From positions 496,001-560,000 of the forward strand of contig NZ_VFIY01000004.1 of the NCBI RefSeq assembly GCF_006385175.1: a DNA stretch of 64,000 nt, in the 5' to 3' direction. This document shows positions 464 through 45,212 of the stretch, in pieces. Position 1 is the stretch's first letter. Each line of letters begins with the position of its first letter. The position numbers and the translations under genes are program-made. The stretch comes from Emcibacter nanhaiensis (lineage in GTDB: Bacteria; Pseudomonadota; Alphaproteobacteria; Sphingomonadales; Emcibacteraceae). Under the pieces are notes generated by a model that was given only the letters and a program-made list of their open reading frames with translations, searched no databases and was not told the origin of the DNA.

Positions 464-553
464 GGAGAGGTGGCAGAGCGGTTGAATGCACCGGTCTTGA
501 AAACCGGCAAGGGTGCAAGCCCTTCGTGGGTTCGAATCCCACCCTCTCCGCCA
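464..553 (+). tRNA. tRNA-Ser (anticodon UGA)
   Basis: A 90-base class II tRNA. The acceptor stem GGAGAGG (464-470) pairs with CCTCTCC (543-549), followed by discriminator G and an encoded CCA. The anticodon loop CTTGAAA gives UGA, decoding UCA-type serine codons. It has the long variable arm of tRNA-Ser and the T-loop GTTCGAATC. Its 3' end is the integration site of the island that follows; the duplicated 20-base end reappears at 13647-13666. Confidence 0.96.
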
Positions 554-556
554 CTT
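537..556 (+). repeat. attL: left copy of the 20-base island end repeat, inside tRNA-Ser
   Basis: The last 17 bases of the tRNA plus CTT are identical to 13647-13666. Reconstitution of the complete tRNA 3' end by the element is the standard outcome of tyrosine-integrase insertion into a tRNA gene. Confidence 0.85.
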
Positions 557-615: not shown

Positions 616-637
616 TGCTACACCAACGTGCTACACC
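616..637 (+). promoter_or_regulatory. Candidate integrase arm-type sites (left pair)
   Basis: TGCTACACC occurs at 616-624 and again at 629-637, a period of 13 bases, just before the integrase start and about 60 bases inside attL. The same pair with the same 13-base period lies about 63 bases inside the right end (13563-13584). Paired short direct repeats at both ends are typical of integrase or excisionase arm sites; this role is inferred. Confidence 0.5.
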
Positions 638-643
638 GCAGGG

Positions 644-2323
644 ATGAAAGAGGACATGGCAAAATACCCAGGATTAAGCAAACGAGGCTCCCGTTATCAG
701 ATCAGACGGAAGGTCCCGGTTGACCTCATTGATGTCTACGCTCCGAAAAAAGAGATCACCTACAGCCTCAAGACATCCGACTGGACTGAAGCCCTCAAGC
801 GCCTGAATGTCGAGAACGTTAAAATCGATGCCGAGTTCGATAAAAAGCGTATGGAGCTCGAAGCCGCAAACAAGCCAGCACGTTCTGAGCTAACAGAAAC
901 TGAAATCAGAACTATCGGTAGGCTATACTTTGCCTGGCTGCTTTCAGAAGACGATGAACAACGCTTGAAAGGGATCACAGACGAGTATCTGACTGGCATT
1001 GAGGTCATGGAGGATACGGCCAAGCAGGCCTATGCTCTTGGTGGCAAGAATGCACTTTTTGATGATCTGGTAGATGAGGTCCTGGCGTGGGAGGGGGTAA
1101 ATGTCCGCCTCGAAGCGGATTCGCCTTCCCGTTTAATGTTATCGAGGGAACTTCAGGCCCAGACGATCAGTGCGGTTAAAAAGATCGACCTTCGCGACAG
1201 TGGCCAGGTTGTTGAGACGCCGAAACCTACGGCACTTGCTCGTGCTCTTGAGGAGCCAGTCCCAGCAGCCAAAAAAGTAACTATCAAAGACCTCTTCCAC
1301 AAATGGAAGGCAGCGGCAAAACCTCAAGACAAAACTGCCTACGAGTTCGAAAAGTCAATCGACCGCTTCGTGCGTTACAACGGAGACCTGGACTACAAAC
1401 GAATTACAAAATCACACATCAGAGACTACAAGGATATGCTTTTACAGTATCCATCCATACTGACAAAGCAGCAGCGGGAAATGGACATCTCAGAGCTGAT
1501 AGAGTCCCTGGATGGCAAGGAAGATATAAAACGCCTGTCCCCGAGCACGGTCAATGAAAAGCATCTGGCTGCATTGAATACCATTCTGAATTGGGCGGTA
1601 AGTGATGGCTATCTCGATGCAAACCCGGCTCTGGGAATCAAAGCGATACCGTCCAAGGAAGACACCGGCAGGTTGCCCTACGACATCGATGATCTGCAAC
1701 TGATTTTCAGTCTGCCTGCGATCACAGGAGAGAAGACGCCAAGAGCAGCAGGTGGAGCGGCAGCAAAGTGGTTACCCCTCCTCTGCCTGTACACGGGTGC
1801 CAGGGAAGAAGAAATAGCTCAGGCCTTGTTAAACGATGTTAAAGAAGAAGACGGCATAACCTACATTGATCTTGTGGCAGACGAAACAACGGACAAACGC
1901 CTCAAAACGAAAAGCAGCCGGAGGCGGCTCCCTGTGCCCAAGACGTTACTCGACCTTGGCTTCATGAAATATGTTCATAACCTACGTGAAGACAAAGAGA
2001 CCCGGCTATTCCCCGAGCTGACTAAAGACCAATTTGGGAACTTCTCGGGAAGCTGGTCGAAATGGTACAGTCGATATGTACGGAGCAAAGGGCTTAATGA
2101 TAGGCGGAAGGTGTTCCATTCCTTCCGGCACACGTTCAAGGACGCTTGTCGACAGGCTGGTATAGACGAAGCAGTTCACGATGCCTTGACAGGTCACGCG
2201 GGAGCCACTGTAGGAAGGCGCTACGGGTCGGGCAGCATGGCCTACTCCGTCAAACAGCTCAAGGAGGCCATAGACAAGGTTTCGTATCCCGGCCTGGACT
2301 TGTCACATTTGAAGAACACATAG
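644..2323 (+). CDS. Tyrosine-type site-specific integrase
   Basis: A 559-residue recombinase expected to catalyse insertion and excision of the island at tRNA-Ser. The N-terminus (GLSKRGSRYQIRRKVPVDL) matches the short arm-binding beginning of alphaproteobacterial island integrases. A SAM-like core-binding domain spans about 210-330. The catalytic set is complete: R387 (TGAREEE), a lysine near 421-423, H492-x-x-R495 (HSFR), H518 (LTGH) and nucleophile Y527. An in-frame ATG at 656, preceded by AAAGAGGA, is an equally possible start and would give MAKYPG. The gene points away from the tRNA and converges on the ParB-like gene. The intact active site suggests the island may still be mobile. Confidence 0.93.
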   Translation: MKEDMAKYPGLSKRGSRYQIRRKVPVDLIDVYAPKKEITYSLKTSDWTEALKRLNVENVKIDAEFDKKRMELEAANKPARSELTETEIRTIGRLYFAWLLSEDDEQRLKGITDEYLTGIEVMEDTAKQAYALGGKNALFDDLVDEVLAWEGVNVRLEADSPSRLMLSRELQAQTISAVKKIDLRDSGQVVETPKPTALARALEEPVPAAKKVTIKDLFHKWKAAAKPQDKTAYEFEKSIDRFVRYNGDLDYKRITKSHIRDYKDMLLQYPSILTKQQREMDISELIESLDGKEDIKRLSPSTVNEKHLAALNTILNWAVSDGYLDANPALGIKAIPSKEDTGRLPYDIDDLQLIFSLPAITGEKTPRAAGGAAAKWLPLLCLYTGAREEEIAQALLNDVKEEDGITYIDLVADETTDKRLKTKSSRRRLPVPKTLLDLGFMKYVHNLREDKETRLFPELTKDQFGNFSGSWSKWYSRYVRSKGLNDRRKVFHSFRHTFKDACRQAGIDEAVHDALTGHAGATVGRRYGSGSMAYSVKQLKEAIDKVSYPGLDLSHLKNT

Positions 2324-2366: not shown

Positions 2367-3323
2367 CTAAAAGTCTACCTCTTCAACTTCTTGAAGTGTC
2401 TCCAGTGTTGTCTCTTTCAGGTCGGGGTCGCTTTCGAGCTTACGGCCAAGCTCCCCAACAAGAATGTCTGTGGGAAGGTGTGCTGATTCAAAATCTCCCT
2501 TCAATTCCTCGAGCATACTCTTGTACAGATCAAGAGAGTAAAGCTCCAGCGCCCGCAAGGTAACATCTGGATGCCGAGCCAATCGCTTACCAAAGAGTTT
2601 CCCGAGGCGTTGGGCAAGCTTTTGGGCCTGCTGTTCTCTCCAGTCATCGGAAGACTCGATGATCTCTTCCCCGTTAGCTTTCCAGCGAGCTCTCTCCCAC
2701 GTCAAAGATGCCGGGTCTTCTCCTTGCTCCCTCAAGGTCTTTACGACACTTCGCATTTGCTTCGCGTGCCTATCCCCTATCTTGGTTGCGTCTACGATCT
2801 GCTTCACAGTTTTGGTCGACTGTCGTGGAGCATCAGGGTTATATGTCGCTACTGTCAATGCCCAGGCACGCTGCGATTTTTCCTTTGAAGACATTTGAAG
2901 GTGGTCGCAAGTATTGAGATTTGTTGCTTCAAAAGTCGCATCCAGGACAGTGCCTTTGAAGACTGACACCCCAACAGGTCTACTAATGCCGTTTCTTTTG
3001 TATGCTTCGTAGCGGTGGTGACCATCAACCAGGAACCATGCTCCGTTAATCGACATCACAAAAAGCTTTCCCAAGTCCGTCTCAGTGCCGACACTTCGTT
3101 GTGCTCGGGCGAGTTCTTTTACATGCTGATAGTCGGCACCTGACTCTTCATGCCGGAGACGAGGCTGGAATACAGACGGCGCGAGTTTGATTTCGGAAAG
3201 CTCAACTCGTTCCGGGTCTTCTCTATTCGTATCAGCATCCGTCTGGAAGCCCTGGAGGTACTTAATACCGTCCTCGAGATCCAGTCTGGCCAAATGTTTT
3301 AGATCGAGTTCAACAGACGTCAT
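2367..3323 (-). CDS. ParB-like N-terminal domain protein
   Basis: A 318-residue cytoplasmic protein. Residues about 40-125 form a ParB/sulfiredoxin-like fold: LSEIKLAPSVFQPR followed by VDGHHRYEAYKRNG (99-112), the equivalent of the ParB nucleotide-binding box. Residues about 150-210 look like a helical DNA-binding section (STKTVKQIVDATKIGDRHAKQMRSV). The C-terminal third is charged and helical, with an acidic tail. There is no ParA partner nearby, and canonical GERRFRA is replaced by GHHRYEA, so plasmid-type partition is unlikely. Stand-alone ParB-like proteins on islands are often regulators or DNA-binding accessory proteins; which applies is unknown. GGGGGAG lies 5 bases before the ATG. 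Confidence 0.7.
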   Translation of the reverse strand: MTSVELDLKHLARLDLEDGIKYLQGFQTDADTNREDPERVELSEIKLAPSVFQPRLRHEESGADYQHVKELARAQRSVGTETDLGKLFVMSINGAWFLVDGHHRYEAYKRNGISRPVGVSVFKGTVLDATFEATNLNTCDHLQMSSKEKSQRAWALTVATYNPDAPRQSTKTVKQIVDATKIGDRHAKQMRSVVKTLREQGEDPASLTWERARWKANGEEIIESSDDWREQQAQKLAQRLGKLFGKRLARHPDVTLRALELYSLDLYKSMLEELKGDFESAHLPTDILVGELGRKLESDPDLKETTLETLQEVEEVDF

Positions 3324-3690: not shown

Positions 3691-4221
3691 ATGCAGCTGG
3701 AATTCGAAAATCAGGAACAAGTATTTTCCTGGAGGGTTGCACGACGAAATGCCCGGTTCGGGGCTATAGTCAGCGCAATAGTAATAACCCTTTTCTTGTT
3801 GGTCGAAGCGTTCTTTAATTTCCTTGGTGGCAGTGTTGAATGGTGGATGGCTTCTCTTCCTCTTTCCCTTGCAGCATTGTCCTATGGTGCAGTGCTTATC
3901 GAACAGCCTTGCTCATGGTGGTGGAAATACAGGTGGTCCACAGACCGCAGGCGTAAGTGGTTTACCTTCATAATGATTCTGCTTGTTGTCTATGCGCCGC
4001 TATTGTCCCCTTCCCTGAGAGATCACTTGTTTGAGCCATACTATGAAAAGCCGTTCATACTGACAGTAGTGTTTCTTTCGTACAGCTGGATAGTTGGTTT
4101 CCTGGCAATGCCCATAGGAGCATTCCTATCGTGGTTTCTTTTATCTCTGCTCGCCATGATGAAAAAACACGTGCGCCTCGCCCACCGCATTCACTCTTAT
4201 TTCTGGAGAGACAAACCATGA
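3691..4221 (+). CDS. Small integral membrane protein of unknown function
   Basis: A 176-residue protein that I do not recognise. It has four or five hydrophobic segments (about 25-48, 52-73, 90-107 and a long one at 121-157) with short, basic, Trp-rich loops and no obvious catalytic motif. It starts at an ATG preceded by GGGGGAATAGG. Its stop overlaps the start of the serine recombinase gene in an ATGA, so the two are translationally coupled. That pairing is unusual and suggests the recombinase is expressed from this gene's promoter. The base composition is more A+T-rich than the recombinase gene. It could be an accessory membrane protein of a defence module, but no sequence feature proves that. 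Confidence 0.55.
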   Translation: MQLEFENQEQVFSWRVARRNARFGAIVSAIVITLFLLVEAFFNFLGGSVEWWMASLPLSLAALSYGAVLIEQPCSWWWKYRWSTDRRRKWFTFIMILLVVYAPLLSPSLRDHLFEPYYEKPFILTVVFLSYSWIVGFLAMPIGAFLSWFLLSLLAMMKKHVRLAHRIHSYFWRDKP

Positions 4222-4808
4222 CTAAACGCGTCGCTTTGTACCTCAGGGTATCCACCGCAGAACAGACCACAGAGAACCAGCGGCTGGAACTTGAAGCCAT
4301 CTGTAAGCGCCAGGGCTGGGTGATCGTGGAAGTCTATGAAGACGCCGGGATCAGTGGAGCGAAAGGTCGGGACAAACGCCCCGCCTACGACGCCATGCTA
4401 AAGGATGCCAGCCGCCGCAAGTTCGACATGATCATGGCCTGGAGCATTGACCGCCTTGGGCGCTCCCTACAGCAGCTTGTGGTCTTCCTAGAGGAGCTCA
4501 AGAGCCTCGACATTGATCTCTACCTGGACCGCCAAGGAATCGACACCAGGACGCCGACAGGCAAGGCCATGTTCCAGATGTGTGGCGTTTTTGCCGAGTT
4601 CGAACGGTCCATGATCCAGGAGCGTGTGAAGGCCGGGCTGGATAGAGCCAAGGCCAACGGGACAACACTGGGTCGCCCAAGGATCAACCAGGAAAAGGAA
4701 GCCAGGATCATCCAGCTCAGGGAACAGGGAGCCAGCTTCAGGAAGATCGCTGGCGAGATCGGCTGTGGTATCAGTGCCGTCCAGAGGGTACTCCAGAAGG
4801 CTTCATAA
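4218..4808 (+). CDS. Serine recombinase, resolvase/invertase family
   Basis: A 196-residue site-specific recombinase of the small (Tn3 resolvase/Hin/Pin) type. The catalytic N-terminal domain has the nucleophile serine in YLRVSTAEQ (S12) and the active-site arginines in SIDRLGRS. A long E helix (GVFAEFERSMIQERVKAGL) follows. The C-terminal helix-turn-helix (about 160-195, REQGASFRKIAGEIGCGISAVQRVL) binds DNA. The open frame extends upstream, but the ATG at 4218 with GGAGAG before it restores the family's usual N-terminus. It may resolve or invert DNA inside the island; no transposase accompanies it. The palindromic TTGTGTCGATACAA at 4831-4844 lies just downstream and could be its site. Confidence 0.9.
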   Translation: MTKRVALYLRVSTAEQTTENQRLELEAICKRQGWVIVEVYEDAGISGAKGRDKRPAYDAMLKDASRRKFDMIMAWSIDRLGRSLQQLVVFLEELKSLDIDLYLDRQGIDTRTPTGKAMFQMCGVFAEFERSMIQERVKAGLDRAKANGTTLGRPRINQEKEARIIQLREQGASFRKIAGEIGCGISAVQRVLQKAS

Positions 4809-4902
4809 GTCCTCCCAGGTTATCAAAGCCTTGTGTCGATACAACCCGCCCCCACGGGGGGAACTTCGTTTCCCGCAACTGTTGATAGGGGTCACAGATT
4901 TT

Positions 4903-4930
4903 TTGCTATTTTTTATAAACGGGATATAAT
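4903..4930 (+). promoter_or_regulatory. Promoter of the GIY-YIG/hsdRMS operon
   Basis: TTGCTA (4903-4908), a 16-base spacer and a perfect TATAAT (4925-4930) lie 31 bases before the ATG at 4962. This is the only strong promoter seen before the six-gene operon, whose internal gaps are overlaps or 3 bases. Confidence 0.6.
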
Positions 4931-4961: not shown

Positions 4962-5900
4962 ATGAACCTTAAAGGCCGATCAATCAGATTGTTCCTGGTA
5001 GATGGATCGCCGACCGGCCTGAGAACGGCTGAGATCATGAACTGGACGGGTCATGTCTTGTTCACACCCCAGATGCAGCTGGCAACCGCCCTCACCCGCA
5101 AAGAAACCAAACGAACCGGCATTTACTTGCTTGTTGGCCCTGATCCAGAAGGGTCAGACCGGCCCATGCTTTACATCGGTGAAAGTGACAATGTTGGAAA
5201 CCGGATCGCACAGCACAACAAAGACGAGAGAAAAGACTGGTGGGACCAGGCCGTCCTGGTGACCTCCAAGGACCAAAACCTGACTAAAGCCCATGTGAGA
5301 TACCTTGAGGCCCGCCTTATTCAAATGGCCAACGAAGCTAGGCAGGCCATCGTGGAGAATGGCACTTCACCGAGCTCAGATGAATACCTCCCGGAATCTG
5401 ATGTCGCCGATATGGAATTCTTTCTGACTCAGCTTGAGCTCATTCTGCCTGTTCTGGGACTGAACGTTCTGAAGGGAAAGACAAGAAAGGAAAAGGCGCA
5501 AGCTCCTTCGGAGGAAGGCAGTCCTACAAAGGAAACAGAGACATTCACATTGTCCAGTTCAAAGCACGGCCTGAACGCTACAGCACTTCAGGAAGGGGAT
5601 GAGTTTATTGTCTTGAAAGGGTCAAAAGCCCGGCCTTCCTGGGTAGGTACAGTTCGCCATAATCGTGGCTATTCAAACCTCCACACGCGCCTTGTGGAAG
5701 ATAATATCCTGGTCCAAAATCCCGGTGATGATCTCATGACCTTTAGCGAGGATACTGCCTTCAACAGTCCCAGCGCCGCCGCTGCAGTAATTTATGGCCG
5801 GGCTGCAAATGGCCGGACATCCTGGAAGGTCAAAGGCACCAACAAGACCTATGCTGATTGGCAGGAAGCCCAGCTTGGCGATGTAGAAGCGGATGAGTAA
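4962..5900 (+). CDS. GIY-YIG nuclease family protein with C-terminal DUF4357
   Basis: A 312-residue protein heading the restriction operon. The GIY-YIG signature is complete: GIY at 53-55, YIG at 71-73, R81 (NRIAQH) and the metal-binding E116 in RYLEARL. The C-terminus (about 265-305, SPSAAAAVIYGRAANGRTSWK) matches DUF4357, often attached to GIY-YIG domains or found beside type I restriction genes. I chose the ATG at 4962 because GGGGGG lies 5 bases upstream and the open frame before it looks non-coding. Its stop overlaps hsdR (ATGAGTAA). With all catalytic residues present it could cut DNA alongside, or as a safeguard to, the type I enzyme; the actual role is unknown. Confidence 0.85.
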   Translation: MNLKGRSIRLFLVDGSPTGLRTAEIMNWTGHVLFTPQMQLATALTRKETKRTGIYLLVGPDPEGSDRPMLYIGESDNVGNRIAQHNKDERKDWWDQAVLVTSKDQNLTKAHVRYLEARLIQMANEARQAIVENGTSPSSDEYLPESDVADMEFFLTQLELILPVLGLNVLKGKTRKEKAQAPSEEGSPTKETETFTLSSSKHGLNATALQEGDEFIVLKGSKARPSWVGTVRHNRGYSNLHTRLVEDNILVQNPGDDLMTFSEDTAFNSPSAAAAVIYGRAANGRTSWKVKGTNKTYADWQEAQLGDVEADE

Positions 5901-8900
5901 CTACAAGTCCCATAACTTTGAGTTCCTCTCTGGGAAAGCCCCGGAGCTGCATAAGCTTGCCTGCTTCGCTGAGCATTATTCTCTGTCAGACCCTGAGGGC
6001 GCCCTGGTGAAACTCCGCGCTTTCTCGGAGCAGATGACCAAGTCCATCTATTTCCTGCTTCGACTTCCCAAGGGTACGGATAACACCTTTGTTGGTCTCC
6101 TATGTACCGAGGAATTCAAAACGGCAATCCCTGAGGTGGTACAGACCAAGCTCCACGCTATTCGCAAGGAAGGCAACAAAGCAGCCCACGGGTCAAAGAC
6201 ATCGACCAAAACAGCAACCTGGCTATTGAAGGAAACCCATCAGCTGGCCGGTTGGTTCGCTGTAGCGTTCCTCAAAGTGGACAAGAGTGATCTACCTGGC
6301 TTCAAGGAGATCACCGAGGTCGCGCCTGAAGATGGCGAAAAGTCGGACTTGGAAAAGGAGCTGGAGCGGATCACTGCGGAGCTCAACAAGACCCAGGAGA
6401 AATATACCGCCGCCGTCCAGGCTCTGGATGAACTGCAGAAGGAACAGGAGCACGGCCAGGAAGTCGCTGATGCCCTGGCCCTCAGTGAGGCCGAAACCCG
6501 GAAACGCCTGATTGACATTGCCCTGGCAGAAGTCGGCTGGGATGTGGGAGAGAATGGCCGGGGAACCGCTGAGGTCACCCAGGAAGAGAAACTCAGCAAT
6601 CAGCCCACGCCTACAGGTGTCGGTTATGCGGACTATGTGCTTTGGGATGACAATGGTAAGCCGTTGGCAGTAATCGAAGCCAAGAAGGCCAACAAGTCTG
6701 CAGAGCATGGTAGAAAACAAGCCAAGCTTTATGCCGACGACCTTGAGAAAACCCACGGTCAGCGCCCGGTCATCTTTTACACCAACGGCTATGACATCCA
6801 CATGTGGGATGATGTGCAGGGATACCCTCCCCGCCAGTTGTTCGGTTTCTATTCCAAGGAAAGCCTGCAGTATCTGGTGAACTTCCAGCGAAAGGAAAAG
6901 CTCCCTCTGAACAGCTTGTCTCCCAACCCAGAAATAGCAGGGCGAATTTATCAAATAACCAGCATTAGAGACGTCACTGAGAAATTCACAGACAAGTTCC
7001 GCAAGGGGTTGATTGTCCAGGCAACCGGGACCGGGAAAACGCGTGTGGCTGTCGCTCTGTCTGACCTCCTCCTCCGCGCCAAGTGGGCCAAGCGGGTGCT
7101 GTTCCTGTGCGACCGGCGGGAACTCCGCAAGCAGGCCAAGAACGCCTTCAGCGATTTCCTGTCTGATCCTGTGGCCTTGGTTGGCACCGGCAGTAAAGAC
7201 GAGGAAAGCGCCCGTATCCTGATCGGCACCTACCCCGGCATGATGTCCCGCTTCCTGAACTATGACCCCGGCTATTTTGATCTGATCATTGCCGATGAAA
7301 GTCACCGCAGCATCTACAACATCTATCGGGACCTGTTTAAATATTTCGATGGCTTCCAGATCGGCCTCACAGCCACGCCTGTGGGCTTTATCAACCGCAA
7401 CACGTTCCGTATGTTCGAATGTGAACCGGACAATCCTACGGCCTACTATACCCTGGAAACAGCCATAGATCAGGGCTACCTGGTTCCTTATGAGGTCTAC
7501 ACTCATACAACCCAATTCTTGCGCGAAGGGATCAAATATTCCGAACTGACAGAGGAACAGAAGCAAGAGCTTGAGGAAAGCGATGAGCTACCCGAGGAGT
7601 TCAACTTTGACGCCAGCCAGGTGGATCAACAGGTCCTGAACAAGGACACCAACCGGCACATCATCCGTAACCTGATGGAAAACGGTCTCAAGGATGCCAC
7701 AGGCCAGGCCGTAGGCAAGTCTATCATCTTCGCCCGCAGTCATGATCATGCGGTCCTGCTGTCCAAGGTATTTGATGAGATGTATCCCCAGTATGGCGGA
7801 ACCTTCTGCCAGGTCATCGACAGCCATGATTCCAGGGCCGAGCAGTTGATCGACGACTTCAAGGGCGAAGGCGACAATGATGATCTGACCATTGCCGTCT
7901 CTGTGGATATGCTGGACACCGGCATTGATGTCCCTGAGGTGGTCAACCTGGTGTTTGCCAAGCCGGTAAAATCCAAGGTGAAGTTCTGGCAGATGATCGG
8001 ACGCGGCACCCGTCTTTGTCCCGATCTCTATGGTCCCGGCCAGGACAAGAGCAAGTTCCGGATCTTCGACCATTGGGATAACTTCGACTATTTCGCCCAG
8101 GAGAAACGGGAAGCGGAACCCTCGGAGTCAAAGAGCATCCGGCAGCGGCTGTTTGAGACCCGCATGGCCCTCGCAGAGCTGTGCCTGGAGAAAACACGCA
8201 AGGACGACTTCAAGCTCTATGCGGACCTCCTGAAGGCCGATGTGAAAGCCCTGCCCCGTGAAAGCATCTCCGTACGGGAACGATGGAAGGCGGTGGAAAG
8301 CGTGCAGCAAGACGGCGTGATCGAGGACTTTGCGCCGGTAACTGTGACCACTCTGTCCACTGACATTGCACCGCTGATGCGCTGGGTCAATGTGCGCGGC
8401 CACAGCATCGCTTACAGCTTCGATCTTCTGGCCTCCCTGGCGGAGCTGGCCCTGTTGAAAGGCACCGCCGACTTCGATGACCACAAGGACAACATCATCG
8501 CCCTCACCGCCAACCTGCAGACCAACCTGCCCCAGGTCCGTCACCATATGGAAATGATCAACCGGGTGAAGTCCGCCGAGTTCTGGGAAGAGGTCACTGT
8601 GGAAGATCTGGAGGAGATGCGTAAGGCGCTCCGGGGCATCATCAAGCTCCAGCATGAGAAAACCGGCACCGCCCGCAAGGCCAAGGTCATCGACATCACC
8701 GAGGAGCGCTCTGAGATCCATTTTAGCGGACGATCCAGCAACATCCGCAGCATCGACATGCAGGTCTATCGCCTGCTGGTGGAGGAAGCCCTGCAGCGCC
8801 TGTTTGAAGAAGACCCCACCCTGCAAAAGATCCGCCGGGGCGAACCGGTCACCGAACATGAACTTGAACAGCTCTGCTCCCTGGTCCTCACCCGTAATCC

Positions 8901-9258
8901 CGGTGTCCGCCTGGAGATCCTGGAGGACTTCTATCCGAACCTGGCCGGTCATCTCGATTGGGTGATCCGCAGCATCGTCGGTATGGACCAGGAGGCCGTC
9001 CGGGAACGCTTCACCGCCTTTGTCCAGACTCATCACAGCATGACAGCCCAGCAGATTCGCTTCCTGGATATGCTGCAGAACCATATCGCTACCAACGGCC
9101 ACATCAAGCTGGAACAACTGCTTGGCGGCGAACCGTTTACAAGCCTGCACCCGGATGGCATAGATGGCATATTCGATGAAGATGACTCTGACCAGATCAT
9201 CGAAATCAGCAGACAGTTTGAGTTCCCCGAGAAGGGTGAAGAGGAAGAAAGACAATAA
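5893..9258 (+). CDS. hsdR: Type I restriction endonuclease, R (motor/nuclease) subunit
   Basis: A 1121-residue HsdR. Residues about 1-130 resemble DUF4145, a domain common at the start of HsdR proteins, followed by a charged coiled coil (about 150-205). The PD-(D/E)xK nuclease centre is D247 and E262-A-K264. The superfamily 2 motor has Walker A ATGTGKT (377-383), DESH (468-471) and TATP (493-496), and later the VSVDMLDTGIDVPEVVNLV and QMIGRGTR motifs. The long C-terminal helical region binds the methylase core. All motifs are intact, so cleavage of unmodified DNA after translocation is expected. It overlaps the GIY-YIG gene by 8 bases and is followed 3 bases later by hsdM. Confidence 0.95.
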   Translation: MSNYKSHNFEFLSGKAPELHKLACFAEHYSLSDPEGALVKLRAFSEQMTKSIYFLLRLPKGTDNTFVGLLCTEEFKTAIPEVVQTKLHAIRKEGNKAAHGSKTSTKTATWLLKETHQLAGWFAVAFLKVDKSDLPGFKEITEVAPEDGEKSDLEKELERITAELNKTQEKYTAAVQALDELQKEQEHGQEVADALALSEAETRKRLIDIALAEVGWDVGENGRGTAEVTQEEKLSNQPTPTGVGYADYVLWDDNGKPLAVIEAKKANKSAEHGRKQAKLYADDLEKTHGQRPVIFYTNGYDIHMWDDVQGYPPRQLFGFYSKESLQYLVNFQRKEKLPLNSLSPNPEIAGRIYQITSIRDVTEKFTDKFRKGLIVQATGTGKTRVAVALSDLLLRAKWAKRVLFLCDRRELRKQAKNAFSDFLSDPVALVGTGSKDEESARILIGTYPGMMSRFLNYDPGYFDLIIADESHRSIYNIYRDLFKYFDGFQIGLTATPVGFINRNTFRMFECEPDNPTAYYTLETAIDQGYLVPYEVYTHTTQFLREGIKYSELTEEQKQELEESDELPEEFNFDASQVDQQVLNKDTNRHIIRNLMENGLKDATGQAVGKSIIFARSHDHAVLLSKVFDEMYPQYGGTFCQVIDSHDSRAEQLIDDFKGEGDNDDLTIAVSVDMLDTGIDVPEVVNLVFAKPVKSKVKFWQMIGRGTRLCPDLYGPGQDKSKFRIFDHWDNFDYFAQEKREAEPSESKSIRQRLFETRMALAELCLEKTRKDDFKLYADLLKADVKALPRESISVRERWKAVESVQQDGVIEDFAPVTVTTLSTDIAPLMRWVNVRGHSIAYSFDLLASLAELALLKGTADFDDHKDNIIALTANLQTNLPQVRHHMEMINRVKSAEFWEEVTVEDLEEMRKALRGIIKLQHEKTGTARKAKVIDITEERSEIHFSGRSSNIRSIDMQVYRLLVEEALQRLFEEDPTLQKIRRGEPVTEHELEQLCSLVLTRNPGVRLEILEDFYPNLAGHLDWVIRSIVGMDQEAVRERFTAFVQTHHSMTAQQIRFLDMLQNHIATNGHIKLEQLLGGEPFTSLHPDGIDGIFDEDDSDQIIEISRQFEFPEKGEEEERQ

Positions 9259-9261
9259 GCA

Positions 9262-10773
9262 ATGACCTCACAGGAATTAAAATCCCGCATTGATCGGCTA
9301 TGGGAGGAATTTTGGACCGGAGGGATCACCAATCCCCTGACCGTGATCGAGCAGATTACCTTTCTGATGTTCGCCCGGCTCCTGGACATCCGGGAAAGCC
9401 GTAATGAACGCACGGCCAAGCGTCTGAACCGGTCTTTCAAGCCGCTCTTTAAGGAGGACCAGCAGAATCTCCGTTGGTCTCATCTGATGGGTCTACCGGC
9501 TCAGGAAATCATTCCGCATGTCCGGGACAAGGTCTTTCCCGCCTTCAAGGGACTTGCTTATGAAGAGGCCACCTTTGGCGAATACATGAAGAACGCCCAG
9601 TTGATGATCCAGAAGCCGTCCCTCCTGGTCAAGGCGATGGAAATGATCAATGACCTGCCTCTAGAGCAAAGCGACATCAAAGGCGACCTCTATGAATACC
9701 TGCTGTCCAAGCTGACTACAGCCGGGATCAATGGCCAATTCCGCACCCCGCGCCACATCATCAAGTTCATGTGTGAAGTGATTGATCCTAAACCCAGCGA
9801 AACCCTTTGTGATCCGGCTTGCGGCACAGCGGGCTTCCTGGTCGGCGCGTTGATGCACATTATGGAAAACTATTCCGATGACGATGGTAGAATTCCCGAT
9901 GAGGGCGGCGTGATCCATTACACCGGCAACCTGCTGAAGGACAACCAGCGGGAGTTCCTGCAGAAAGAAATGTTCAATGGCTTTGACTTCGACGACACCA
10001 TGCTCCGGGTTGCTTCCATGAACATGTTGTTGCACGGGATCGAGGCCCCGCAAATCCATTACCAGGACACCCTGGCCACCAACTTCGAGGACAAGTTCCC
10101 GAAATCAGCCACCAACGGCTTTGACATCATCCTGGCCAACCCGCCCTTTAAGGGTAGCCTAGATTACGAAGACACCCAACCCCGTTTGCTGGCCAAGGCC
10201 AAAACCAAGAAGACCGAACTCCTGTTCATCACCCTGATCCTGGAGATGCTCAAGTCCGGCGGACGTGCCGGGGTCATTGTCCCCGATGGGGTACTGTTCG
10301 GTTCGTCCAAGGCCCACCAAGCGGTCCGTCAACACCTGGTCGAGGAAAATGGTCTTGATGCGGTCATTAGTCTGCCCAGCGGCGTCTTCAAGCCCTATGC
10401 CGGGGTTTCCACAGCCATCCTGATCTTCACCAAGGGATCGGAAACCAAAGACGTCTTTTTCTATGACATTCAGGCCGATGGTTTCAGCCTGGATGACAAA
10501 CGCTCCCCTATCGACCAGAACGACCTCCCGGCGGCCCTGGAGGCCTGGCAGAGCCGCAAAGAGAAAGACCTCAGCGACCGCACCAAATCAGCCTTTACCG
10601 TGCCCAGGGCGGAGCTGGCGGACAATAAATATGATCTCTCCCTCAGCCGCTACAAGGAAGTAGTTTATGAGGAGGAAGAATTTGACCCCCCCAAGGAAAT
10701 CCTTGGCCGTCTGAAAGATTTACAGGCGGCAATCGACAGCGACCTCAAAGAGCTTGAGGAGATGCTGGGGTGA
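9262..10773 (+). CDS. hsdM: Type I restriction-modification DNA methyltransferase, M subunit
   Basis: A 503-residue N6-adenine methyltransferase. The N-terminal helical HsdM domain (about 1-130) is followed by the catalytic domain with the S-adenosylmethionine motif DPACGTAGF (184-192) and catalytic motif NPPF (293-296). Length and motifs are those of a complete HsdM, which forms M2S with HsdS and protects host DNA. It begins 3 bases after the hsdR stop; its stop overlaps the GTG start of hsdS. The G+C-rich codon use resembles hsdR and differs from the recognition domains of hsdS. Confidence 0.96.
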   Translation: MTSQELKSRIDRLWEEFWTGGITNPLTVIEQITFLMFARLLDIRESRNERTAKRLNRSFKPLFKEDQQNLRWSHLMGLPAQEIIPHVRDKVFPAFKGLAYEEATFGEYMKNAQLMIQKPSLLVKAMEMINDLPLEQSDIKGDLYEYLLSKLTTAGINGQFRTPRHIIKFMCEVIDPKPSETLCDPACGTAGFLVGALMHIMENYSDDDGRIPDEGGVIHYTGNLLKDNQREFLQKEMFNGFDFDDTMLRVASMNMLLHGIEAPQIHYQDTLATNFEDKFPKSATNGFDIILANPPFKGSLDYEDTQPRLLAKAKTKKTELLFITLILEMLKSGGRAGVIVPDGVLFGSSKAHQAVRQHLVEENGLDAVISLPSGVFKPYAGVSTAILIFTKGSETKDVFFYDIQADGFSLDDKRSPIDQNDLPAALEAWQSRKEKDLSDRTKSAFTVPRAELADNKYDLSLSRYKEVVYEEEEFDPPKEILGRLKDLQAAIDSDLKELEEMLG

Positions 10774-11933
10774 GTTGGAAATCCGTCGATCTAGGAGACC
10801 ATGTCGATATCCTATCTGGGTTTGCCTTTAAGTCTTCCCTGTTTAAGGGCGACGGCGACATTCCTATAATTCGCATTCGGGATGTTGATGCTGGAGTTAG
10901 CAGTACCTACTACAAGGGTGAATATGACCCTAGGTATATCGTTGATAACGGTGATCTGCTGATCTCAATGGATGGAGAGTTTCGTGTACGCAGATGGGCG
11001 GGAGGTAAAGCTCTTCTCAACCAACGAGTTTGTAAGATAAAAAGCAATGACGACACTCGACTTGACGAAAACTATTTGAACCACTTTCTGCCTGCGCAGT
11101 TGAAGTTAATTGAAGATCAAACCCCCTTTGTTACGGTCAAACATTTGTCAGCTAAGACAATCAGGGAAATTAAACTTCCTCTCCCTCCCCTTGAAGAACA
11201 AAAGCGCATAGCCGCCATCCTGGACAAGGCCGATACCGTTCGTAAGAAACGCCAGCAGGCCCTCAACATGCTCGACGAGTTCCTCCGCGCCACCTTCCTC
11301 GCATTTATGGAGGAGCAAAAGGAAGAACTGTTTGAATACAAATTTGAGGAGCTTGCTCTACCCGATAAGAATTCCTTTGTTAATGGGCCTTTTGGCAGCA
11401 ATCTGTTGACGAGTGAACTGACCAATGAGGGTGTACCAGTTGTCTACATAAGAGATATAAAACATGGTCGGTATGAAAGGTTGAGTACAAATTGTGTAAC
11501 CGAAAATAAAGCTCAGGAACTCGCATCTTGTAATGTAAAAGGTGGTGATGTTCTCATAGCCAAGGTAGGTGATCCACCGGGTACCGCCGCGGTCTACCCT
11601 TTTACGGAGCCCGAGGCAATTGTTACTCAAGATGTCATCCGAATGCGTTTAGATCCAAGTGTAGCAAATCGAAATTTTCTTGTTCAGTATTTGAATTCAG
11701 GCGTTGGGAAGCATTCATTAAAGTCCATAACCGTTGAAGCGACAAGGTCTCGCATAGGACTGACCGCACTCAAAAAGAGTCCCATCAAGATACCTCAAAT
11801 CAGTGTGCAGGACAGATATTGTGAAATTGCACGCCAAGTGTTTCACACCCGGGAGAATGCTTTAACAAGTCAAGTAGACTTTGAGAACCTCTTTTCCTCT
11901 CTCTCCCAACGTGCCTTTCTGGGAGAGCTGTGA
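10770..11933 (+). CDS. hsdS: Type I restriction-modification specificity subunit
   Basis: A 387-residue protein with a GTG start overlapping the hsdM stop. It has two target-recognition domains (about 1-135 and 186-335), each followed by a conserved helical spacer. The first spacer, PLPPLEEQKRIAAILDKADTVRKKR (about 137-161), is the diagnostic HsdS repeat; the second (about 338-387) is more diverged. Each recognition domain reads half of a bipartite DNA target, which cannot be predicted here. Both recognition domains are A+T-rich, while the central conserved segment (about 11180-11320) is G+C-rich like hsdM. This mosaic suggests domain exchange. The stop overlaps the next gene in TGATG. Confidence 0.93.
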   Translation: MSWKSVDLGDHVDILSGFAFKSSLFKGDGDIPIIRIRDVDAGVSSTYYKGEYDPRYIVDNGDLLISMDGEFRVRRWAGGKALLNQRVCKIKSNDDTRLDENYLNHFLPAQLKLIEDQTPFVTVKHLSAKTIREIKLPLPPLEEQKRIAAILDKADTVRKKRQQALNMLDEFLRATFLAFMEEQKEELFEYKFEELALPDKNSFVNGPFGSNLLTSELTNEGVPVVYIRDIKHGRYERLSTNCVTENKAQELASCNVKGGDVLIAKVGDPPGTAAVYPFTEPEAIVTQDVIRMRLDPSVANRNFLVQYLNSGVGKHSLKSITVEATRSRIGLTALKKSPIKIPQISVQDRYCEIARQVFHTRENALTSQVDFENLFSSLSQRAFLGEL

Positions 11934-12766
11934 TGTTTATCTGGCTACCCAAAGCAAAGTGGTTCTGGACAGCCGTCAATGTTGTCGCCTGGGTTGGAGG
12001 CCTTACTTACATTGGGTGCATGTTAGTATGGCCCTGGATTGAGAAGGGTGGTGATTGGGGTTACGTTCAAAGCGTCTGGACTCATTGGCAGGGATTAAAT
12101 GTCGGTGTCCTAGCATTTATGGCCAGTGTCGCAGCGCTAAAGAATGTCCAAACAAGGGCGGAAACTGAACGCGATATTGAGATGGAACGATTGGAGACTG
12201 AGCGAAAGCGCAAGCTCGCAAATGCCTTTTCTTTCTTGCTTCAAGAACTAAGTATTTTGACGAAATATTTCCGTTTTTCCATGGGCTATCTAAACAGAGT
12301 TTGGTCCAAAATGGAACTATCTCCAGAGGGATACACAACAGTACCTGTTGGCGAAACTCCACCGACGGTCCCAACGTCTCACCGAGCAGTGTTTAGTGAA
12401 TGCATGGAATACGCTGACGAGGAATTGTATGAGCTTCTCTCTGGTTTCTTAAAGAAGCTTCAAATTCATGATGCCAGGATAAGTGATATGAACAAGTCTT
12501 TTGAACTAGACCAGGGGATGATCGTCACACGAGCAAATGTGCTAGGATATATCTACAGGGCTGCCGAATTACAAGCGATCGTAAATAGACTATTCAATAT
12601 TTCACGCGGTAGGCCATCCCCTATAAATGAACATTTTACCCTTGAAGAAATTAAAACAGCTCTCTCGGAAGGTAACATTGATTTGGACGATATGGATGGC
12701 CTTGAGGAGTTAGTTAAGGGTGCACTTAACAAACAGGAGCAAACTGTAGGAGGAAAGATTGATTAA
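11933..12766 (+). CDS. Membrane protein A of a homologous pair at the end of the hsd operon
   Basis: A 277-residue protein of no family I recognise. Two N-terminal transmembrane segments (about 13-36 and 53-70) precede a highly charged helix (about 73-95, rich in E and R) and a helical cytoplasmic domain. It shares with the next protein the landmarks YV-x(3)-W-x(2)-WQ-x(2)-N before the second membrane helix, ER-x-R/K after it, F-x-x/D-C-x-x-YA-x-x-E in the middle, and LQ-x(4)-R. I chose the ATG at 11933 (TGATG overlap with hsdS, GGGAGAG upstream) over an in-frame GTG at 11930. Co-transcription with the restriction genes implies a linked role, perhaps membrane-based abortive defence; this is inference. 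Confidence 0.6.
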   Translation: MFIWLPKAKWFWTAVNVVAWVGGLTYIGCMLVWPWIEKGGDWGYVQSVWTHWQGLNVGVLAFMASVAALKNVQTRAETERDIEMERLETERKRKLANAFSFLLQELSILTKYFRFSMGYLNRVWSKMELSPEGYTTVPVGETPPTVPTSHRAVFSECMEYADEELYELLSGFLKKLQIHDARISDMNKSFELDQGMIVTRANVLGYIYRAAELQAIVNRLFNISRGRPSPINEHFTLEEIKTALSEGNIDLDDMDGLEELVKGALNKQEQTVGGKID

Positions 12767-13559
12767 AAAGTTTCCACTATATTCAATCATTACAGTCCTA
12801 GCCCTTCTCTACCTATACTCAATGGTCCTTCAGCCCTTCTGTGTTTCAGGTGGCACCTTTTGGGAACGGTGGAAATATGTCAAGGAAACGTGGGAGACCT
12901 GGCAGACGTTCAATGCCGCGATGATTGCGCTTGCTGCCAGTGCAGGAGCACTCATAGCAAGTTATAAATTCCATAAGTCTCAACTTGACGCAGCAGAAGA
13001 TGAGCGCATCAGGAACCTGCATGTTTGTCTCGCTAATGTTACACATGAACTAGGGAACTTAATCAGATACTTAGAAGGTACAGCTAGTGTGTTAAATGAA
13101 TTATGGGATCGACTGAGAACACGTAGTGCTGAACCACTCACAGTCCCTCTAGCATCATATTCAACTTCAGGACGAAACATTTTCTTAGATTGTATTCCCT
13201 ATGCTGAACCTGAAGCGGCCATAGTTTTCCGCACAATGACAAACAATCTTCAGTTGATCAATGACCGTGTAGAAAACCTGAGATCTCGTCATCCTGATCG
13301 CCTTCGTCCTTCGGCAATGTGGTCCATTATCGATAGTATTAGAATGATCGGTATGATGAGAGCGTATGTTGACAAACTCTATGAATATGCACGCGGAGAA
13401 ACTGTTTTTGATAGCGCACCCTTAACCTCGGAGAATGTTCTCCAAGCGATTGAGCATCTTGGCTTAAATCCAAACCATTACAGTATTCAAGCAGAGCAAG
13501 GACTGGTCAGTTTCATCAATAACACCTTGCCATCCGAAGCAGATCCGTATGAGCCTTGA
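12759..13559 (+). CDS. Membrane protein B of a homologous pair at the end of the hsd operon
   Basis: A 266-residue protein starting at TTG, supported by an ideal AGGAGG (12748-12753) five bases upstream and an 8-base overlap with the preceding gene. It has the same plan as its neighbour: two membrane helices (about 6-27 and 46-66), then a charged helix and a cytoplasmic helical domain with F-L-D-C-I-P-Y-A-E-x-E and LQ-x(4)-R at equivalent places. Overall identity is low, so the duplication is old, and the two probably form a heteromer. It is the last gene before the right island end. No enzymatic motif is visible. The region is A+T-rich compared with hsdR and hsdM. Confidence 0.6.
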   Translation: MIKKFPLYSIITVLALLYLYSMVLQPFCVSGGTFWERWKYVKETWETWQTFNAAMIALAASAGALIASYKFHKSQLDAAEDERIRNLHVCLANVTHELGNLIRYLEGTASVLNELWDRLRTRSAEPLTVPLASYSTSGRNIFLDCIPYAEPEAAIVFRTMTNNLQLINDRVENLRSRHPDRLRPSAMWSIIDSIRMIGMMRAYVDKLYEYARGETVFDSAPLTSENVLQAIEHLGLNPNHYSIQAEQGLVSFINNTLPSEADPYEP

Positions 13560-13562
13560 AAC

Positions 13563-13584
13563 TGCTACACCAGACTGCTACACT
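13563..13584 (+). promoter_or_regulatory. Candidate integrase arm-type sites (right pair)
   Basis: TGCTACACC (13563-13571) and TGCTACACT (13576-13584) repeat with the same 13-base period as the left pair at 616-637. They begin 3 bases after the last gene's stop and end 62 bases before attR. Their presence only at the two island ends supports a recombination role. Confidence 0.5.
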
Positions 13585-13646
13585 GCGACGAAATTGGGAA
13601 TGAAATAGTTATTATTTTTCAATTGGATAGGGTTTTACAATGAGTT

Positions 13647-13666
13647 TCCCACCCTCTCCGCCACTT
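13647..13666 (+). repeat. attR: right copy of the 20-base island end repeat
   Basis: Identical to 537-556, a fragment of the tRNA-Ser 3' end without the rest of the tRNA. The chromosome resumes here. The original downstream flank of the tRNA is therefore the sequence from 13667. Confidence 0.85.
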
Positions 13667-13693
13667 ACCTCTACATCCTATGGCCCCTACATC

Positions 13694-14584
13694 CTAAGGC
13701 AGTTGTGATCTGAGCGGCAGGTCGCCGGTATTCAGACGGCGAGCAAGCTCCCGCGCAATTCGTTCTTCCAGGCGATAGCGCGCTTCCCTGCGTTGGGCGC
13801 GGCCATCGAATTTGCGCCTGGTGCTGTCATCGGGAAAGACTGTGGTCGGTTTGAGCCCACAGGGGGTTTCCGCCTTCAGATCCGTCCCCATTTCAAAGCC
13901 CTGCGAGAGGCTATCGCGAAGCTGGTCATCACTGACCAGACTGCCCAGAATCGACAGTGACTGACGGTAGGCATAGCGCGCTTCGAGTTTTTTACGCTCG
14001 AGCGTATAATGGGCCTGCAGCAGACGGTTACATTCCTTTCGTTTTTCATCCCGGTACTTTCCCGGGTATTTCCGGGTCTTCTGTCTGAGATCACGGTCCA
14101 CCACATCAATGTCCTGATAGAGCCGGGTATAGGTGACCAGAATATCGGATTGATAAGAGCCGTCAGTAAGCACCACATGGGGTGGCACCCGGTCCAAGAG
14201 CTCTCCCCTTATGGCGGCGGCCAGCTTGGGATCCTGTGGCACATGAACAAAAAGGGTCACCGCATTTTGGTTCAGGAAATCCCTGTAATAGTCGGGATAC
14301 ATCTGCTCTACCGCCCGGCGGGAGACCCGGCCACCATACCAGTCGATGGAAGGCAGCCGATCAGCAAAGGCCTGGCGTTCTGCCGGGGTTGCCGGTCCGG
14401 CCAGAAAATTGAAAAATCCCCGGTCCATCAGGCTCGGCTGAAGATGCAGCAGGCCCATGCGTGTTTCATACTCCTGCGCCGTAATGGGCGGCACAGGCTC
14501 CGGCTGAAACATGGCGCAGCCGCCCAGGCTGAAGCCGAAGATGAAGATGAAAATTTTCTGCACGATATAACTTTTGCTGATCAT
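13694..14584 (-). CDS. Putative lipoprotein of unknown function
   Basis: A 296-residue protein from the ATG at 14584. The open frame runs 15 codons further upstream, but the shorter start gives a proper lipoprotein signal peptide: basic start, hydrophobic IFIFIFGFSLGG and a cysteine in the lipobox LGGC. The mature part is rich in Arg, Tyr and Gln, with a basic helical region (about 175-215) and an Arg-rich C-terminus. No known domain is recognised. It would be anchored to the outer or inner membrane facing the periplasm. It is the first chromosomal gene after the island's right end and is transcribed toward it, so its own downstream region was separated from the tRNA by the insertion. Confidence 0.7.
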   Translation of the reverse strand: MISKSYIVQKIFIFIFGFSLGGCAMFQPEPVPPITAQEYETRMGLLHLQPSLMDRGFFNFLAGPATPAERQAFADRLPSIDWYGGRVSRRAVEQMYPDYYRDFLNQNAVTLFVHVPQDPKLAAAIRGELLDRVPPHVVLTDGSYQSDILVTYTRLYQDIDVVDRDLRQKTRKYPGKYRDEKRKECNRLLQAHYTLERKKLEARYAYRQSLSILGSLVSDDQLRDSLSQGFEMGTDLKAETPCGLKPTTVFPDDSTRRKFDGRAQRREARYRLEERIARELARRLNTGDLPLRSQLP

Positions 14585-43967: not shown

Positions 43968-45212
43968 CTACAGCAGCATGGTGGACGGTGTTTCAAGGAA
44001 CATTTTCAGGGCTTCGAGGAACTTTGCCCCGACCGCGCCGTCAATGGCCCGATGGTCACAGGCCAGGTTCACGGACATGACTGTCGCCGGCACCATTTGT
44101 CCGTTCTTGACCACAACCCGTTGTTCGCCGCTGCCCACAGCCAGGATCGCTGCCTGCGGCGGGTTGATCACAGCCTGGAAGGTCTTGATCCCGAACATGC
44201 CGAGGTTGGAGATGGAGAAAGTTCCGCCCTGGTAATCTTCCGGCATCAGTTTGCCGTCACGGGCTTTCTTGGCCAGTTCCTTGGTCTCGTCGGAAATCTG
44301 GCGCAACCCTTTATGTTCAGCGCCGCGGATGACCGGGGTCACCAGGCCGCCGTCAATGGCGACCGCCACGGAGACATCGGCGCGCTCAAACTGGCGCATC
44401 ACATCACCCATAAACTGGACGTTGGCTTCCGGGACTTTCTTCAGCGCCAGGGCGCAGGCCCGGATGATGAAATCGTTGACCGACAGCTTATACTCGTCGT
44501 TGCTGATCGCGTTGAGCTGTTTGCGGGCTTCCAGCAGGTTATCCAGTTCGATATCCACGCCGAGATAGAAGTGCGGCACGTTCTGCTTGGATTCCGTCAG
44601 GCGCTTGGCGATGGTCTTGCGCATACTGGACAGCTTGATTTCGTGATAGGGTGCTTCGCCGCCCATCTCAACCGCCCCAAATGCAGCAGCAGCCGGTTTG
44701 GCACTGGGCACAAAGGCTTCCACGTCACGCTTGATGATACGTCCGCGCGGACCACTGCCGGTGATGGCGGAAATATCATAACCCTGCTGGGCGGCAATGC
44801 GGCGGGCCAGTGGTGAGGCAAATACCCGGTTGCCGGAGGCTGCCGGAGTAGCTGCAGCCGGGGCCGGTGTAGCGACAGGTGCCGGTGCTTCTTCGGCTTT
44901 TTCAGCAGGAGCAGCCGCGGCGGGAGCCGGAGCAGAAGCCTCATAGCCTTCCAGCGCGGAGGCATCTTCGCCTTCTTCCAGCAGCAGGCCGATCAATTCG
45001 CCCACCTTCACCTCTTCGGTTCCTTCCGGCACCAGGATTTTGCCCATAACGCCTTCGTCGATGCTTTCAAATTCCATGGTCGCCTTGTCGGTCTCGATCT
45101 CGGCCAGGATGGTACCGCTTTCCACGGTATCCCCTTCCTTGACGGACCAAGTGGCCAGGGTCCCGCTTTCCATGGTCGGGGACAGGGCCGGCATACGTAA
45201 TTCGATTGGCAT
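43968..45212 (-). CDS. pdhC: Pyruvate dehydrogenase E2, dihydrolipoamide acetyltransferase
   Basis: A 414-residue E2. One lipoyl domain (1-80) with lipoylated K43 in [10 protein letters not shown], an Ala/Pro-rich linker (about 85-130), a peripheral subunit-binding domain ([29 protein letters not shown]) and the catalytic acyltransferase domain ending with [14 protein letters not shown], the active-site H-x(3)-DG. The frame stays open far upstream into pdhB, but the ATG at 45212 with GGGGAGAGAAG before it gives the standard N-terminus. It starts 13 bases after pdhB. Confidence 0.96.

Follow-up and report, generated by a model that had tools for sequence, protein, structure and literature searches.

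What do two membrane proteins of no known family contribute to a type I restriction operon? The question is raised by a stretch of 64,000 nucleotides from Emcibacter nanhaiensis (contig NZ_VFIY01000004.1, positions 496,001 to 560,000; hereafter the window, whose own numbering is used throughout), in which a gene for a GIY-YIG/DUF4357 protein is followed by hsdR, hsdM and hsdS and then by TM2a and TM2b, two genes for putative membrane proteins with two transmembrane (TM) helices. The answer we favour, giving it about an even chance, is that hsdS and accessory defence genes form an exchangeable cassette behind a conserved hsdRM, and that in the window the accessory genes encode two putative membrane effectors forming a second layer of defence. 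The six genes, all on the + strand, and the promoter-like sequence before them are listed here.

4903..4930, + strand: putative sigma-70 promoter (TTGCTA-N16-TATAAT), 31 bases upstream of the first ATG
4962..5900, + strand: GIY-YIG/DUF4357 protein, PDC-S14 (profile match; ATG start)
5893..9258, + strand: hsdR, EcoEI-like (profile match; ATG start)
9262..10773, + strand: hsdM (profile match; ATG start)
10770..11933, + strand: hsdS, two specificity stretches; first gene of the putative exchangeable cassette (GTG start)
11933..12766, + strand: TM2a, 2-TM family (ATG at 11933; a GTG start at 11930 is also possible)
12759..13559, + strand: TM2b, 2-TM family, paralogue of TM2a (TTG start)

Operon Structure and Restriction Genes

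Recomputed coordinates agree with the first-pass annotation, made from the sequence alone, in which six genes were joined by overlaps (8, 4, 1 and 8 bases) or, once, by a gap of 3: in gene order the junctions are an overlap of 8, a gap of 3 and overlaps of 4, 1 and 8 bases, the hsdS/TM2a overlap being 1 base from ATG 11933 and 4 bases from GTG 11930. By eye, AGGAGG precedes the TTG start of TM2b. The promoter, described in that annotation as good, is present and is the top of seven promoter-like matches (10 of 12 consensus bases), but shuffled sequence yields a mean of 6.9 such matches, so that the match alone is weak and not above chance. On the + strand from 4962 to 13700, no terminator-like site was detected, either at the gene junctions or downstream of TM2b.

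HsdR has the domains HSDR_N, ResIII, Helicase_C and EcoEI_R_C of an EcoEI/EcoAI-like subunit, with the motifs EAKK, GTGKT and DESH intact; its best PADLOC model is REase_I (4.8e-287), and its bit scores lie below the NCBIfam equivalog cut-offs. HsdM carries an N6-methylase (adenine) domain with intact motifs, and HsdS has two specificity stretches. As judged from their sequences, genes 1 to 4 represent a GIY-YIG/DUF4357 gene and an EcoEI-like type I system, whose ATP-dependent cleavage and methylation activities are predicted. The locus shares with EcoEI/EcoAI-like operons the EcoEI_R_C HsdR, the N6-methylase HsdM, the two-stretch HsdS and the order R-M-S, and differs from them in its first gene and in the two membrane genes after hsdS, all tightly joined. 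The earlier suggestion of one functional unit beyond an ordinary type I system holds in that the operon is larger, but the six genes do not emerge as one conserved machine. Identity with a MADS system was rejected, HsdM scoring 144 bits against a cut-off of 720 (MAD2) and HsdS 52 against 400 (MAD5); among the ten proteins scanned, no further MADS genes appeared beyond mad2/mad5 cross-matches.

An Accessory Slot After hsdS

Fifteen loci encoding relatives of HsdR were opened. Nine came from the order, in which 10 of 296 genomes, the window's included, matched at an expect value (E) of 1e-150; the other six lie on plasmids (of 36 records). Eight of the 15 have the order R-M-S, and all eight carry one or more same-strand genes directly 3' of hsdS, starting within ~120 bases of it (the annotated gap is 181 in Pseudomonas luteola); in the other seven, hsdR lies 3' of hsdS and the place is not comparable. 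Its contents vary: an AAA ATPase with a partner in genome G489, Methylocella, Vibrio coralliilyticus and Azotobacter; a protein matching PDC-M09A in Vitreoscilla; JukA (3.5e-28) and JukB (1.2e-142) in P. luteola; another putative 2-TM protein, unrelated to TM2 by profile comparison, on an E. coli plasmid; and, in genome G474, a small protein with apparent TM segments together with a DUF4145-DUF5655 protein (PDC-S18, 3.4e-40). The hsdS of G489 was assigned by position and by eye, and the Azotobacter hsdR and hsdM are in pieces. Six of the seven loci scanned (Azotobacter was left out) have at least one slot protein with a PADLOC match below 1e-20: in three loci to NsnB/PDC-M55A-type ATPases, and in one each to PDC-S18, to PDC-M09A and to JukA with JukB; the AAA-ATPase matches are to broad models, those to JukAB, PDC-S18 and PDC-M09A to specific ones. 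The gene before hsdR varies as well: five loci have a sigma-54 type regulator (annotated in four, judged by eye in G489), two have a WYL regulator, which in E. coli lies on the opposite strand, G474 has neither regulator, and the window has the GIY-YIG gene.

The place after hsdS in this HsdR clade is an accessory slot, filled differently by lineage and in several cases with known or candidate anti-phage genes. Because the slot in relatives holds such genes, the proposal of the first-pass annotation, restriction as the first line with a further layer as back-up, is reasonable from position, though this does not make the six genes a single conserved machine. In G474, whose restriction genes are the nearest found to those of the window (HsdR 66%), the slot pair lies at 7971-9584 of locus L132 with zero-base gaps. 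On the P. luteola plasmid (NZ_CP044084.1; locus L145, 12440-17070), JukA-JukB come directly after hsdM-hsdS, pairing an anti-jumbo-phage pore system with a restriction enzyme.

JukA is described as detecting early phage proteins on the infection vesicle, where JukB forms pores, presumably exposing the DNA to host nucleases (PMC13282480). Juk is a real example of a membrane-acting second layer in the same slot, and it shares with TM2a/TM2b, as these are read here, a set of two genes, action at the membrane and a place directly after hsdS in a relative of the operon. Homology to Juk was rejected, as there was no PADLOC Juk match at E 0.1 and the hhalign probability was 0.2% against a single JukB and 0.1% against a single JukA.

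Apparent Exchange of hsdS With Its Downstream Genes

The hsdRM of the E. coli plasmid was matched in 417 of 5,426 genomes, and eight E. coli contexts were opened, seven picked for variety from 40 listed matches plus the plasmid itself. Behind hsdS, three contexts hold an ATPase with a partner and two a SIR2 gene in reverse orientation; one has a short ATPase gene next to an insertion sequence, E. coli W has two unknown genes, and the plasmid has the 2-TM protein. With E. coli strain 097H6 as reference, the main stretch of matching DNA breaks off where hsdM meets hsdS in six of seven contexts and continues in one, two of the six breaks having a short matching island inside hsdS. The hsdS-ATPase-partner stretch of strain C41 is present over at least 80% of its length in 243 genomes, and it is the first part of hsdS alone that is missing in 16 of the 25 matches listed; for hsdS together with the 2-TM gene, 14 records reach that 80%, the 2-TM part being confined to the five full matches (among the best 25 of 77 records). 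In E. coli, hsdS travels with its downstream slot genes. The pair in E. coli W, a laboratory strain (L148, 12985-14992; 582 and 88 residues, overlapping by 8 bases), may represent new defence genes.

Between the window and G474, HsdR is 66% and HsdM 73% identical, HsdS aligns over 258 of 387 residues at 35%, and the slot proteins do not match; the break seen in E. coli recurs here, the DNA match stopping at 10716, just before the hsdM stop, bar 121 bases inside hsdS. A stronger form of the cassette reading, which we regard as possible though doubtful, is that the unit of exchange in this type I clade is hsdS plus its own accessory defence genes, each specificity having a matched second-layer effector; in the window this effector would then consist of two membrane proteins from a new family and be coupled to the restriction complex.

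Coupling to hsdS, and the joint travel of hsdS and slot genes in E. coli, would also suit a guard of the kind known from EcoprrI, in which HsdRMS keeps TM2a/TM2b inactive until a phage inhibits the enzyme, whereupon the membrane is permeabilised and the cell dies before phage release. There is precedent in that PrrC is described as an accessory gene in a type I operon (PMC3874165) and that some type I systems are described as coupled to accessory genes thought to be toxins (PMC12707154). EcoprrI-PrrC and the present locus have in common an accessory gene within a type I operon and a proposed second layer for phages that escape restriction; however, PrrC is an anticodon nuclease whose gene is embedded in a type IC operon, whereas TM2a and TM2b lie after hsdS and are predicted membrane proteins without a PrrC domain. 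PrrC was rejected as their identity, and they have no nuclease or other known toxin domain (Pfam, NCBIfam and PADLOC at E 0.1 for both). Contact between TM2 and Hsd proteins is, moreover, purely hypothetical, and the 2-TM family occurs mostly without hsd genes, so its members must work or be harmless alone. We consider a guard unlikely.

The TM2a and TM2b Proteins

TM2a and TM2b are paralogues (24% identity, E 2e-17) and, as had been noted from the sequence at the outset, membrane proteins of no known family: neither has a match in Pfam, NCBIfam or PADLOC at E 0.1, nor a convincing one in PHROG. The 38 aligned members of the 2-TM family (two of them from the window) likewise gave no convincing match to Pfam, the matches (best E 0.003) being scattered over 14 families, and this sequence-profile scan gave no support for putAbiC or any other Pfam family. 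Nor was a recent tandem duplication supported as the origin of the pair, each protein being closer to outside proteins (37% and 29-31%) than to the other (24%); in the tree, which is weakly supported and has both on long branches, they are not sisters.

AlphaFold2 models of the two proteins are confident (predicted local distance difference test score 92.7 for TM2a and 92.4 for TM2b) and alike in helix order, with TM1, a short segment and then a single very long helix, its first part forming TM2 and its continuation entering a helical bundle. Eight positions are invariant in the 38 sequences (M30, P34, W49, W52, Q53, N56, A61 and R225, in TM2a numbering from ATG 11933), and the most conserved segment is the hairpin, 38-53. 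Both termini should be cytoplasmic, since lysine and arginine are few in the hairpin (mean 1.2) and more numerous before TM1 (3.3) and after TM2 (4.2). On these models, the undescribed family to which TM2a and TM2b belong has two TM helices, a tryptophan-rich hairpin and a cytoplasmic helical bundle. No catalytic site was seen. Foldseek with the TM2a model found no PDB or BFVD match at E 0.001, and the best VIA matches (Z 10.5) were generic helical bundles, which point to neither a known nor a new fold.

A cytoplasmic bundle on a membrane anchor, as modelled, next to hsdS could serve to tether the restriction complex at the inner membrane, where it would meet DNA at its point of entry. Here too the interaction between TM2 and Hsd proteins is purely hypothetical, the family is mostly found without hsd genes, and relatives of the operon do without TM2 proteins; we hold a tether to be quite improbable. 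In the favoured reading of a cassette with two membrane effectors, HsdRMS would restrict unmodified DNA first, the GIY-YIG protein being likely an auxiliary nuclease. TM2a and TM2b would sit in the inner membrane, their bundles in the cytoplasm, and act together, possibly as a hetero-oligomer, as a second layer at the membrane against phages that get past restriction. They might do so, for example, by perturbing the inner membrane or by blocking DNA entry, and in response to a phage, in response to failed restriction, or as plain phage exclusion.

Distribution of the 2-TM Family

The 2-TM family is sparse. Overlapping samples, each including the window's genome, contained it in 3 of 60 relatives (no further genome of the genus among them), in 7 of 385 genomes from the class and in 9 of 396 from the order. 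An alignment-based search recovered 37 loci in named genome records, nearly all Pseudomonadota, as against none when genome contigs were searched with the TM2a sequence (P0005) alone. Further members lie on 12 Vibrio plasmids, in one Peduoviridae Vibrio phage and on two viral contigs. In that phage, ValB1MD-2 (L006, 2097-2885), the 2-TM gene stands beside the integrase and is followed by two unknown genes and a DNA adenine methylase; it is likely a lysogenic-conversion gene. Two copies per genome were seen in the relatives, class and order samples only in the window's genome; Spongiibacter thalassae has two on separate contigs, and the window's is the sole tandem pair seen.

Elsewhere the family shows no conserved neighbour, the largest shared group, generic ATP-binding proteins, occurring in 6 of 53 loci. 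The first-pass annotation had named in advance a result that would refute its reading, the membrane genes lying mostly apart from hsdRMS, and this result was obtained, against a conserved joint system. Among 55 distinct loci (57 minus two duplicates, L099 = L010 and L101 = L009), none has hsd genes adjoining the 2-TM gene and one has hsdM/hsdS ~4 kb away; hsd genes were sought by similarity to the Hsd proteins of the window (E 1e-4), which divergent subunits could escape, and four loci are shorter than 9 kb. No locus seen outside the window, whether a 2-TM locus, an HsdR-relative locus or an E. coli locus, pairs TM2 with hsd genes. A conserved GIY-hsdRMS-TM2 system was accordingly rejected, none of the 15 HsdR-relative loci and none of the seven further E. 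coli loci having a GIY-YIG or TM2 homologue within the stretch retrieved. Because the family is otherwise a sporadic lone gene, with 0 of 55 loci beside hsd, its specific coupling to hsd genes is not conserved. Nor is it established as a defence family by neighbourhood, since PADLOC matches were not clearly commoner among 130 proteins near 2-TM genes than among 130 more than 5 kb away; the far set is complete, the near set comprises 130 of 139 proteins (missing are all four from L093, three from L095 and one each from L004 and L086), and as 25 of the 57 families matched were listed, distinct near matches are not exactly countable.

These distributions weigh against the favoured reading, as do two further points: the TM2 proteins are unlike both JukA/JukB and the 2-TM protein in the E. 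coli slot, and base composition lends the cassette little. G+C at third codon positions (GC3) falls from 0.70 in hsdR and 0.71 in hsdM to 0.45 in hsdS, 0.43 in TM2a and 0.39 in TM2b, but this step at hsdM/hsdS is weak, supporting evidence because GC3 of hsdS is low in all ten relatives measured, and slot genes outside E. coli mostly rise again (G489 0.78 and 0.61). Counted in favour are the ends of the element, the gene overlaps, the slot filled in 8 of 8 loci and its PADLOC matches, the exchange in E. coli and the break against G474, the presence of 2-TM genes on a Vibrio phage and on Vibrio plasmids, the predicted topology and the Juk precedent.

The same facts can be read another way, with TM2a and TM2b as passenger cargo, independent genes derived from an element or phage (e.g., for superinfection or entry exclusion) that came to lie at the operon's end, share its promoter and have no link to restriction. 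Such a reading accords with the occurrence of the family as a lone gene without a conserved partner, none of 55 loci being beside hsd, with its presence in a phage and on plasmids, and with the end of TM2b lying 87 bases from the right core of the integrative element described below. TM2a, however, overlaps the reading frames of both hsdS and TM2b, two diverged members have been kept together, and the slot is recurrently filled in relatives and linked to hsdS in E. coli; we regard passenger cargo as conceivable but rather unlikely.

The GIY-YIG/DUF4357 Gene

The first protein of the operon matches PDC-S14, a phage-defence candidate in PADLOC, over its full length (E 3.8e-126; residues 1-307 of 312), with no difference seen. 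The earlier observation that every GIY-YIG catalytic residue is kept was confirmed at seven positions, G53, Y55, Y71, G73, R81, E116 and N133, identical in 14 of 14 aligned sequences, which we take to be the catalytic ones. Eleven plasmid loci with homologues were opened (chosen non-randomly among the best 40 of 46 matching records), and eight have the gene inside an hsd operon: Acinetobacter (three), Rhodococcus, Azospirillum, Ketogulonicigenium, Thioclava and Prosthecochloris (one each); the remaining three have no hsd gene nearby. In the class, 7 of 240 genomes have a match, the window's own included, and none of the other six has hsd genes directly beside it (one locus is just 4.8 kb), although one has an HsdM-like gene ~7.6 kb off and one adjoins an MmeI-like frame (by eye). 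Because it is linked to hsd in 8 of 11 plasmid loci and not in these six genomes, the gene recurs as an optional partner of type I systems. PDC systems are described as still to be characterised, PDC-S14 overlapping with GAO_29 (PMC10855318). At another type I operon (L138, 6883-7404), a short GIY-YIG-like frame lies between hsdS and hsdR (by eye).

The Integrative Element

The six-gene operon is cargo of a 13.1-kb integrative element at a tRNA-Ser gene, with an integrase beside the tRNA gene and direct attachment (att) repeats at both ends. The remaining features of the element are as follows.

464..553, + strand: tRNA-Ser (TGA), integration target
537..556, + strand: left att core, 20-bp direct repeat, at the tRNA-Ser 3' end
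617..636 (617/630), + strand: two GCTACAC repeats spaced by 13 bp, possible arm sites of the integrase at the left end (putative role)
644..2323, + strand: tyrosine integrase, adjoining the left end (library profile match)
2367..3323, - strand: ParB-like protein (weak match, E 0.057, otherwise by eye)
3691..4221, + strand: small membrane protein, no known family (membrane segments by eye)
4218..4808, + strand: serine recombinase, resolvase/invertase type (library profile match)
13564..13583 (13564/13577), + strand: two GCTACAC repeats spaced by 13 bp, possible arm sites of the integrase at the right end (putative role)
13647..13666, + strand: right att core, 20-bp direct repeat

The att core, TCCCACCCTCTCCGCCACTT (20 bases), is the 3' end of the tRNA-Ser gene, and its second copy is exact. 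The GCTACAC pairs inside both ends look like integrase arm sites; elsewhere in the 64 kb the heptamer has just three more copies, both strands counted. Relatives of the tyrosine integrase are 28-43% identical to it among the loci listed. A G+C stem-loop, CCCCCACGGGGGG, at 4849-4861, between the serine recombinase and the operon promoter, is a possible terminator of the upstream genes. Elsewhere in the window, 44950-45191 and 46340-46581 form a 242-base direct repeat (71% identity), perhaps of paralogous genes.

Implications for Type I Restriction Operons

Three things appear to be new: the 2-TM family, the tandem arrangement of two members behind hsdS, and the exchange of hsdS as a unit with downstream genes; a literature search of titles and abstracts and of open-licence papers found no description of a slot after hsdS, the 2-TM family being nameless and so not searchable. 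It looks as if varying genes, defence genes among them, have repeatedly been taken up into a slot behind hsdS and swap together with hsdS. Reading what follows hsdS behind a conserved hsdRM may therefore offer a route to new defence genes, and a match between specificity and back-up effector becomes testable.

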